Shown here one piece after another: positions 14,469 through 61,877 of a stretch of DNA of 64,000 nt (the stretch's first letter is position 1; the number at the start of each line of letters is the position of its first letter). Source of the DNA: Pseudoxanthomonas broegbernensis (GTDB lineage: Bacteria; Pseudomonadota; Gammaproteobacteria; Xanthomonadales; Xanthomonadaceae); assembly GCF_014202435.1 (NCBI RefSeq), contig NZ_JACHGU010000003.1:434001-498000 (forward strand). The letters run 5' to 3'. Below the pieces are notes generated by a model that did not search any database, was not told where the DNA came from, and saw only the letters and a program-made list of their open reading frames with translations. A program made the position numbers and the translations under genes.

Positions 14469-14520
14469 GCGCGCCCTCCCCGCCGGACCTCCCCCCGGCG
14501 GGGAGGGCGCGCAATTTCTT
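14469..14520 (+). terminator. Rho-independent terminator after the TonB receptor
   Basis: A long GC stem begins 5 bases after the receptor stop. Its arms, about 17 bases each, read GCGCGCCCTCCCCGCCG and CGGCGGGGAGGGCGCGC, and AATTTCTTC follows. Either the downstream alpha-glucosidase is expressed by read-through or it has its own promoter. Confidence 0.75.
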
Positions 14521-32006: not shown

Positions 32007-32020
32007 CCTGGCGTCCCTGG

Positions 32021-32057
32021 CTATCAATGAGAATTGTTCTCATTGATAGCCTATACT
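32021..32057 (+). promoter_or_regulatory. Perfect Fur-like palindrome overlapping the promoter of the reductase cluster
   Basis: CTATCAATGAGAA and TTCTCATTGATAG (32021-32033 and 32037-32049) are perfect inverted repeats around TTG. They include the AATGAGAA...TTCTCATT core typical of Fur sites. TATACT (32052-32057), a good -10 box, follows at once, so bound Fur would block RNA polymerase. It controls the PepSY-DUF2271-DUF4198-apbE-reductase genes. Confidence 0.85.
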
Positions 32058-59217: not shown

Positions 59218-59610
59218 ATGGCCTGTGGCATTCTCCTCATCACCCATCCCGGCGTCGGCAGTGCGCTGCTGGCGGTGGCGACCGCCCTGCTGCGCAACCT
59301 GCCGCTGCGGGTGGAAGCCTTCGACGTGCCGTTCGACGCCGACCTGGAGCAGTTGCTTCCCCAGGCTTCGGCGGCCTTGCGCCGGGTCGATGGCGGCGAA
59401 GGCGTGCTGGTGCTGACCGACCTCTATGGCGCCAGTCCGAGCAACCTGGCCCAGCGCCTGGCCCGGCTGGGCACGCCGGTGCGCAGGGTCTCGGCGCTGA
59501 GCCTGCCGATGCTGCTGCGGGTGCTGAACTACCCGGAACAGGGACTGGACGAACTGCCCGCCACCGCCGCGGCGGGCACGCGCAACGGAGCGATCATCGA
59601 CGATGCTTGA
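59218..59610 (+). CDS. PTS EIIA component, mannose/fructose type
   Basis: 130 residues. The EIIA-Man fold begins GILLITHPGVGSALLAVA with the phosphorylation site His10, and contains EGVLVLTDLYGASPSNLAQRLA. No EIIB, EIIC or EIID is encoded nearby, so it is probably a regulatory phosphoacceptor in a PTS that does not transport sugar. Its last eight bases overlap the HPr start. No ribosome binding site is visible. In xanthomonads this gene lies between rapZ and ptsH. Confidence 0.9.
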   Translation: MACGILLITHPGVGSALLAVATALLRNLPLRVEAFDVPFDADLEQLLPQASAALRRVDGGEGVLVLTDLYGASPSNLAQRLARLGTPVRRVSALSLPMLLRVLNYPEQGLDELPATAAAGTRNGAIIDDA

Positions 59611-59871
59611 ACGAGAACTCACCGTCTCCAACCGCCTGGGCCTGCATGCCCGGGCCACCGCCAAGCTGGTGCAGGCGCTGGCGCCGTTCCGCTGCACGGT
59701 CACCCTGCAGGCGAAGGGCCGTGAGGTCAACGCCAAGAGCATCATGGGCGTGATGCTGCTGGCCGCCGGCCAGGGCACGCCGGCACGGTCCGCGCCGATG
59801 GCGAGGACGAGGCCACGGCGATGGATACGCTGGCGGCGCTGTTCGAACGCCGCTTCGACGAGGACGCATGA
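59603..59871 (+). pseudogene. ptsH: HPr phosphocarrier gene with one-base frameshift
   Basis: Up to codon 59 the frame encodes HPr exactly: ERELTVSNRLGLHARATAKL with phospho-His15, and NAKSIMGVMLLAAGQGT with regulatory Ser46 and the HprK-recognition segment. Around 59780-59785 one base appears to be missing. In the +2 frame the sequence continues as TVRADGEDEATAMDTLAALF and ends at TGA 59869-59871, giving an 89-residue HPr if one base is restored. In frame 0 the sequence instead reads unlike HPr and runs without a stop into ptsI. It may be a sequencing or assembly error or a real mutation. A loss of functional HPr would disable the downstream PTS. Confidence 0.8.
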
Positions 59872-59895
59872 GCCCGTCCGGGCCGGCCGGCTCCC

Positions 59896-59931
59896 GCATG
59901 CCTTGCGGACACCGGTGTCCGCAAGGCATGC
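59896..59931. repeat. 36-bp perfect palindrome immediately before the ptsI start
   Basis: GCATGCCTTGCGGACACC is followed directly by its exact reverse complement, ending two bases before the ptsI ATG. The AAGG that would serve as the ptsI ribosome binding site lies in the 3' arm. In RNA it would form a very stable hairpin that hides the initiation region, or it may be a protein-binding site. There is no T-run, so it is not a typical terminator. Confidence 0.9.
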
Positions 59932-59932
59932 G

Positions 59933-61651
59933 ATGAGGCAGGTCTTCGCCGACCACGGCGCCTCGCGCGGCCTGGCCCTGGGCCGGGCACGCGTGCGCCT
60001 GTCGCGCGCCCTGGAAGTGGGCGAGCGCCACGTTCCCGCCGCGCAGGTCGGGGCCGAGGCGCAGCGCCTGCAGCACGCCCTGGACGCGGCGCGCGAGGAG
60101 ATGCGCGCGCTGCGCGAGAAGCTGCAGGGCGCGCTGTCGGACGAGGCGGTGGAATTCGTCGACCTGCACGCCCTGCTGCTGGACGACCCGGAACTGATCC
60201 AGGCCCTGGACGGGCTGATCCGCCAGGAACGCTACTCCGCCGGCTACGCCCTGCGCGTGCAGCGCGACCGCCTGGCGGCGGTGTTCGAGCGCATGGACGA
60301 CCCCTACCTGAAGGCCAGGCTCGACGACCTGGACCACATCATCGGTCGCATCCACGCCCACCTTTATCGTCGCGAACCGGCCCCGCGCAGCACCGCCGGC
60401 GAGGTCCTGGTCTGCGACAACGTGGCCCCGTCGGAACTGATCCAGTTGCAGGCGCAGGGCGTGGTGGCGGTCGTCTCGGCGGCCGGCAGCCCGCTCTCGC
60501 ACAGCGCGATCCTGGCGCGCAGCCTCTACCTGCCGCTGGTGGTCGGCGCCACCGAGGCACTGGACCGGATCAACGACGGCGACGTGCTCATGGTCGACGG
60601 CGAGAGTGGCCGGATCGTGCTCGACCCGGACGCGGCCGACCTGCGCGACTACCGCGCCCGCCGCCAGCAGGAAGCCCGCGAACGGCGCGGCCTGGAGCGG
60701 CTGCGCAGCAAGCCCACCCGCACCCTCGACGGCACCGACATCGTGCTGTACGCCAACGCCGAGTCGCGCGAGGACATGGCCCGCGCCCATGCGGTCGGCG
60801 CGGCCGGCGTGGGCCTGTACCGCACCGAGTTCCTGTTCCTGCAGCGCGAGGAACTGCCGGACGAGGAGGAACAATTCCTCGCCTACCGCGACGCGGTGCT
60901 GGCCATGGGCGGGCGCCCGGTCACCTTCCGCACCCTGGACCTGGGCGCGGACAAGGCCGACCGCGCCGGGCTGGCCCTGGCCAACGAGGACAATCCGGCG
61001 CTGGGCGTGCGCGGCGTGCGCCTGTCGCTGCTGTACGACGAGGTGTTCGACACCCAGTTGCGCGCGATCGCACGCGCGGCCGCCTATGGACCGCTGCGCG
61101 TGCTGGTGCCGATGGTCAGTTGCCGCGAGGAACTGCTGATCGTGCGCCGGCGCCTGCGCCGCGCGGTGGCCGCCGTGCGCCGGCGCGGCGTGGCGGTGGA
61201 GCCTCCGCCGATGGGCGCGATGATCGAGGTGCCGGCCGCCGCCATCGGCGTGCACGGCCTGCTCGACGCGGTGGACTTCCTGTCGGTGGGCACCAACGAC
61301 CTGGTCCAGTACCTGCTGGCGGTGGACCGCAACAACGATGCCCTGGGCGGGCTGTACTCACCGCTGCATCCGGGCGTGCTGCGCCTGTTGGCCCACGTGA
61401 TCGGCGCCGGCGCGCGGCACGGCACGCCGGTGGCGGTATGCGGCGAGATGGCCGGCGACCCGATGCTGGCGCCGTTGCTGCTGGCGCTGGGCCTGCGCGA
61501 GTTCAGCCTGCACCCGGCCAACCTGCTGGAACTGCGCCGCGCGATCCGCGATTGCGACCTGTCCGCCTTGCAGGCGCGCGCCGACAAGCTGCTGCAGGCA
61601 CGCGACCGCGCCGCCATCGAACGCTGGCTGCAGGCCGCCGTCCCGGCGTGA
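59933..61651 (+). CDS. ptsI: Phosphoenolpyruvate-protein phosphotransferase, enzyme I
   Basis: 572 residues from the ATG at 59933, right for EI. The N-terminal HPr-binding domain starts GASRGLALGRARV. The phospho-His is His190 in GSPLSHSAILARSL. The PEP-binding TIM barrel has GVGLYRTEFLF, RTLDLGADK, MIEVPAAAI, DFLSVGTNDLVQY and VCGEMAGDP. It transfers phosphate from PEP to HPr. The continuous frame upstream (to 59603) results from the ptsH frameshift, not from a natural fusion. The only ribosome binding site candidate lies in a palindrome arm. Confidence 0.93.
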   Translation: MRQVFADHGASRGLALGRARVRLSRALEVGERHVPAAQVGAEAQRLQHALDAAREEMRALREKLQGALSDEAVEFVDLHALLLDDPELIQALDGLIRQERYSAGYALRVQRDRLAAVFERMDDPYLKARLDDLDHIIGRIHAHLYRREPAPRSTAGEVLVCDNVAPSELIQLQAQGVVAVVSAAGSPLSHSAILARSLYLPLVVGATEALDRINDGDVLMVDGESGRIVLDPDAADLRDYRARRQQEARERRGLERLRSKPTRTLDGTDIVLYANAESREDMARAHAVGAAGVGLYRTEFLFLQREELPDEEEQFLAYRDAVLAMGGRPVTFRTLDLGADKADRAGLALANEDNPALGVRGVRLSLLYDEVFDTQLRAIARAAAYGPLRVLVPMVSCREELLIVRRRLRRAVAAVRRRGVAVEPPPMGAMIEVPAAAIGVHGLLDAVDFLSVGTNDLVQYLLAVDRNNDALGGLYSPLHPGVLRLLAHVIGAGARHGTPVAVCGEMAGDPMLAPLLLALGLREFSLHPANLLELRRAIRDCDLSALQARADKLLQARDRAAIERWLQAAVPA

Positions 61652-61877
61652 CGCCGCTTCCGTCGCGCACGCACGGCGACCGCGACGGAAGCGCATCCGA
61701 CACCCTGGCCACGGACCTTGCCGGGCGACCGCGCTACCGTCGGACCCGCGCGCGAATCGTCCGTCGCCGGTTTTTGCCCTATCAAATGCCGGGCGCGACG
61801 GGGATAATGGCGGCCATGAACGCCTGACCCGCCGCGCGTCACGTCGCGGCCCCTGCCCCGACAAACCGGAGACGCGC

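Follow-up and report, generated by a model that had tools for sequence, protein, structure and literature searches.

The gap between ptsH and ptsI of Pseudoxanthomonas broegbernensis holds a short open reading frame that, from its anatomy and its conservation, looks like a track for ribosomes. This relay ORF is a more interesting finding than the perfect palindrome it contains, which was the subject of the original prediction. We consider it probable, if well short of certain, that the relay couples ptsI translation to that of ptsH and that the palindrome is a later, tolerated addition. The palindrome itself is probably a scar specific to its lineage, within a relay ORF that is conserved.

The window, by which we mean the whole stretch of 64,000 nucleotides that was analyzed, carries hprK, rapZ, an EIIA gene, ptsH, ptsI and mgtE, arranged as in the X. 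sacchari annotation. For X. campestris, this cluster is reported to include an EIIA-Ntr gene (PMC6916182, in the portion available); a search with the Pfam profile PF00359 (PTS_EIIA_2) gave matches in 0 of 17 Pseudoxanthomonas genomes. The features around the ptsH-ptsI junction are collected in Table 1. The ATG of the relay ORF overlaps the former ptsH stop codon (TGA, 59869-59871), and its own TGA (59934-59936) overlaps the ptsI start codon. Just 3' of ptsI there is an inverted repeat (61655-61693; 18-nt arms, 89% complementary), possibly the end of the operon.

Table 1. Features at the ptsH-ptsI junction, in positions of the window.
Feature	Position	Strand	Remarks
ptsH (HPr)	59603..59871	+	one base short near 59783/59784; frame continues into ptsI
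Relay ORF, 22 codons + stop	59868..59936	+	ATGA overlap at both ends; contains the whole palindrome
Perfect palindrome, 19+19 without spacer	59895..59932	no strand	abuts the ptsI start codon; single copy
AAGG, Shine-Dalgarno-like	59923..59926	+	within the 3' arm of the palindrome, 6 nt before the ptsI ATG
ptsI (enzyme I)	59933..61651	+	572 codons + stop, without internal stop

A relay ORF lies between ptsH and ptsI in all 17 Pseudoxanthomonas genomes compared (16 by gap comparison, and one, L024, read separately; the set includes loci equal to the records for P. taiwanensis and for Pseudoxanthomonas sp. J31). Relative to the ptsH stop, the genus relays start at -4 to +3 nt; they stay open throughout and terminate at a TGA that begins on the second base of the ptsI start codon. 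Across 16 genus loci, the start offset varies (-4, +2, +3) and the gap ranges from 49 to 127 nt, and the frame closes on ptsI every time. The X. sacchari gene table, which is stated to be incomplete, has no entry for a relay ORF, and no description of one between ptsH and ptsI was found in the open-licence literature searched.

A survey of the family extends this picture. Its 118 loci comprised 30 loci of a first set, 8 of 80 named loci, and 80 stretches covering genera that were hand-picked among the matches listed (195 of 198 genomes had a match). Two named loci, L062 and L063, were included in the genus comparison but omitted here as repeats of L016 and L015. Removal of five duplicates left 113 distinct loci. 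The two genes overlap directly in 28 of these and are separated by 0-14 nt in 30; 41 have an exact relay ending in NTGA, two have a bridging ORF with a different overlap, and four have a longer gap without a relay. In the remaining eight (L161-L167 and L178), a start at +2 relative to the ptsH stop lies in frame with EI and continues into it, 20-25 codons before the conserved GHGA-type motif of the enzyme. Such an extension would be an alternative to the relay, likewise leaving no untranslated gap. The script reported no start codon for L024 or for seven of the eight loci with an extension, and these were read individually; the eighth, L164, was scored "nobridge" and later reclassified, although it has a GTG closer to the aligned start as well.

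Among distinct gaps of at least 15 nt, 41 of 47 thus have an exact relay (the script scored 40 in 46 gaps, and L024 adds one to each count). For those 46 gaps, shuffling predicts 6.8 relays, corresponding to a P of about 3e-37 if kinship is ignored, while the sampled genomes are related and not independent. The four relay-free gaps and the two with other overlaps count against our account. Shuffles that kept the first 8 nt of each gap were bridged in 35.9 of 50 cases, compared to 43 of 50 observed (totals from before duplicate removal and with L164 still included), and because so many bridges arise in this way, little weight can be placed on openness by itself. Short GC-rich frames readily remain open, and the NTGA end is fixed; the signal comes chiefly from the position of the start, the maintenance of the frame and the NTGA end. 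At the sole control junction, rapZ-EIIA, a bridge was present in 0 of 27 loci (of the 30 in the first set; three had no rapZ match in the fetched stretch). Relay length varies from 8 to 42 codons across the family sample. On a poorly resolved tree of 112 loci, the presence of a relay requires four changes, two of them forced by starred branches, and its length 21, ten of them within the genus. That strong ribosome binding sites for EI are general among gapped loci is not supported (mean -5.3 kcal/mol, compared to -4.3 after shuffling), and overlapping loci have the stronger sites (-6.6 kcal/mol).

These observations suggest a model for the translation of the two genes. Ribosomes finishing ptsH would restart on the relay, cross it, stop at its TGA and restart on ptsI, so that EI synthesis would follow HPr synthesis despite the 49-127 nt between the genes in the genus. 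The relay would thereby convert one long gap into two tight junctions, and the properties under selection would mainly be the start at the ptsH stop, the open frame and the stop overlapping the ptsI start codon. What is known of termination-reinitiation (TeRe) coupling fits such a model: in the accessible part of PMC10666635, -4 overlaps are described as the commonest and gaps of about 20 nt as almost abolishing coupling in native E. coli and Haloferax pairs. In the window, as in the gaps with an exact relay, the relay stop overlaps the ptsI start by the same -4 NTGA as in TeRe pairs, and both junctions of the window read ATGA; where a relative has an intact ptsH, ribosomes leaving that gene would also terminate at the start of the relay, but not in the window genome as assembled, where the frame passes the former stop. 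Unlike the pairs treated there, a third, very short ORF here bridges a gap that would otherwise be too long. The iraD uORF is reportedly an example of a short upstream ORF that delivers ribosomes to a gene. PMC12548453, as far as accessible, describes short ORFs that presumably supply the following gene with ribosomes, and the unfolding of RNA by upstream ribosomes. The suggested role of the relay in driving translation of the next gene is similar, but the relay lies between two operon genes, is tied to both of them, and shows stronger conservation of frame than of sequence.

The palindrome is real, and its length is far above chance. It had been described as 36 bp long with 18-nt arms, ending two bases before the ptsI ATG; it is indeed perfect, but it comprises 38 bp, with 19-nt arms (59895-59913 and 59914-59932) that are 100% complementary and have a 0-nt spacer, and its last base is flush with the ATG at 59933. 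The Shine-Dalgarno-like AAGG does lie in the 3' arm, as had been noted. From base composition only, about 4e-6 zero-spacer palindromes with arms of at least 19 nt are expected per 64 kb. The next-longest zero-spacer palindrome in the window has 11-nt arms, and others in 400 kb of the same contig reach at most 13-nt arms. Two further symmetric sequences in the window are an inverted repeat at 14469-14512 (18-nt perfect arms, 8-nt spacer) and a near-perfect palindrome at 32019-32051 (15-nt arms, 3-nt spacer), which we take to resemble an iron (Fur) box.

As RNA, the palindrome folds into a hairpin of -33.2 kcal/mol (z -8.2; -23.1 kcal/mol as DNA), and the 101 nt around it have a fold z of -4.8. 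The z score of the ptsI start region is -6.3 in the window, compared to -1.8 to +2.2 in 15 genus relatives (mononucleotide shuffles), which speaks against a conserved hairpin over ptsI; the mean unpaired probability of the region is 0.16, compared to 0.29-0.57 in the same relatives. Outside the genus, locus L027 shows a similarly low value (0.18) without such a hairpin (z -1.3). Anti-Shine-Dalgarno pairing at the ptsI start of the window is weak (-5.5 kcal/mol, compared to -4.8 for shuffles). An RNA hairpin over the ptsI start should raise the dependence of ptsI on ribosomes that cross the relay, whose translation should open it. The original prediction that upstream ribosomes open the palindrome agrees with this anatomy, since the hairpin buries the ptsI start, but the comparison points to the relay ORF as their route and not to read-through from a frameshifted ptsH. 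A selected role for the hairpin finds no support in these sequences, because the hairpin is not conserved.

In the genus, a 25-mer of the palindrome (allowing up to 3 mismatches) matched only the genome it came from and was absent from the other 16 of the 17. Such absence fits the recent origin that had been proposed, but a simple insertion is not evident, because the window gap of 61 nt falls inside the genus range. We suggest instead that, in the lineage of the window, a local inverted duplication, probably by a template switch during replication, put the palindrome into the relay, where it would be tolerated since openness and frame are what counts there. Mutations at quasi-palindromes provide a precedent, as local template switching alters inverted repeats and can extend the identity of their arms (PMC7202029, PMC3820800, as far as these sources were available); in our case the template-switch origin is an inference.

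An alternative that we give only slightly less than an even chance, and that is compatible with the relay, is that the template-switch scar has no effect on EI, whose translation would be initiated well enough anyway. The occurrence of the palindrome in one genome only among those compared, the 15 genus relatives without structure at the ptsI start, and the wide sequence change that the relay tolerates are all consistent with a neutral scar. However, independent initiation should be affected by a hairpin of -33 kcal/mol over the start region.

The ptsH frameshift that had been noted is present in the sequence: the gene has 269 nt, compared to 270 in three relatives, with a single base missing near 59783/59784. 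Ribosomes would run through into the ptsI frame, and the merged ORF has 682 codons. A functional tie between frameshift and palindrome, which had also been proposed, is mechanically possible but has no comparative support, because relatives with intact ptsH have the relay without the palindrome. If the deletion is real, ribosomes from ptsH would move into the ptsI frame without using the relay start, and their product would be a fusion of EI with a damaged HPr; for EI on its own, initiation at 59933 would be required, with the passing ribosomes holding the hairpin open. The deletion would then cut the handover from ptsH to the relay in the genome of the window, which counts against our account.

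It is unlikely, in our judgment, that the palindrome, the deletion or both are assembly or sequencing errors. Such an error is suggested by the disruption of the only HPr match in the genome (Pfam PF00381, covering positions 2-57 of the 81-position profile), for which the same search found no backup gene, and by the 89 codons of HPr in 15 of 16 other genus genomes, the exception being L024, a 57%-complete assembly. On the other hand, the palindrome lies mid-contig between syntenic genes and preserves the relay frame, and in a comparison with the relative G013 over 48.5-63.2 kb, 19 of 39 matched ORFs of at least 100 aa have single-frame alignments that cover more than 90% of their length. The remaining 20 appear, by reading, to be mostly antisense or over-long; ptsH, being shorter than 100 aa, is not among the ORFs compared. 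The neighboring genes, as far as they were read, thus lend no support to a generally poor assembly, which does not by itself prove the ptsH deletion. Loss of ptsH in X. campestris has been reported to have no influence on virulence or sugar uptake (PMC6916182, in the portion available), and a real loss in P. broegbernensis is therefore conceivable.

That the relay encodes a functional small protein seems very doubtful. An N-terminal MxxPG, found in 12 of 16 genus loci, is the one feature that would point to a selected peptide, and it may reflect some sequence constraint. However, relay lengths differ widely (8-42 codons), no common C-terminal part was found among the genus loci, and non-synonymous changes dominate in the three equal-length pairs, of six compared, in which codon changes were counted (non-synonymous to synonymous 7:1, 12:0 and 16:2). 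Judged from these sequences, the amino acids of the relay are little conserved beyond the short N-terminal motif.

Perfect palindromes are typical of dimer-binding sites, and the original prediction had also considered a DNA-protein site. That the palindrome is an operator bound by a protein, or belongs to a repeat or mobile family, is nevertheless the least credible reading and highly improbable, given its position inside an operon and its single copy in the genome (3.47 Mb, 32 contigs), where three other arm matches need 3 mismatches each and a reversed control pattern gave one match. The exact 36-mer had no match in the species genome collection and the exact 19-nt arm none in viral contigs; a phage search with the palindrome found nothing, and a plasmid search returned only partial matches in five records, with an E of about 5, which is chance level. 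A 301-base query spanning the palindrome and the relay ORF revealed no second genomic copy of that stretch. Single occurrence in the genome and among the genus relatives disfavors a shared binding site or the operator of a regulon, and together with the collection, viral, phage and plasmid searches it leads us to reject a repeat or mobile element family. It also sets the palindrome apart from the MIRU elements of mycobacteria, ORF-containing elements described as mobile repeats in the accessible part of PMC12548453, which are present in many copies. Neither an intrinsic terminator (a GC-rich stem followed by a T run) nor a promoter was found in 59600-60100.

A relay that is locked in frame but loose in sequence, and that is found across several genera of one family, suggests that a long gap can be bridged by a translated track with coupling retained. 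According to the accessible part of PMC10666635, coupling needs overlaps or very short gaps, and the relay offers a natural test of that rule. ORFs of this type may escape annotation. The palindrome is in effect a naturally occurring mutant in which one could ask whether it is the track or the unfolding of RNA that matters. Tentatively, and with more doubt than for the model itself, we propose that relay ORFs are a distinct kind of genetic element, selected mainly for their ends and their open frame and not for their product, which would keep translation continuous across operon gaps; the palindrome would then show that the track can be changed freely, and that a loose coupling may become an obligatory one in a single mutation.
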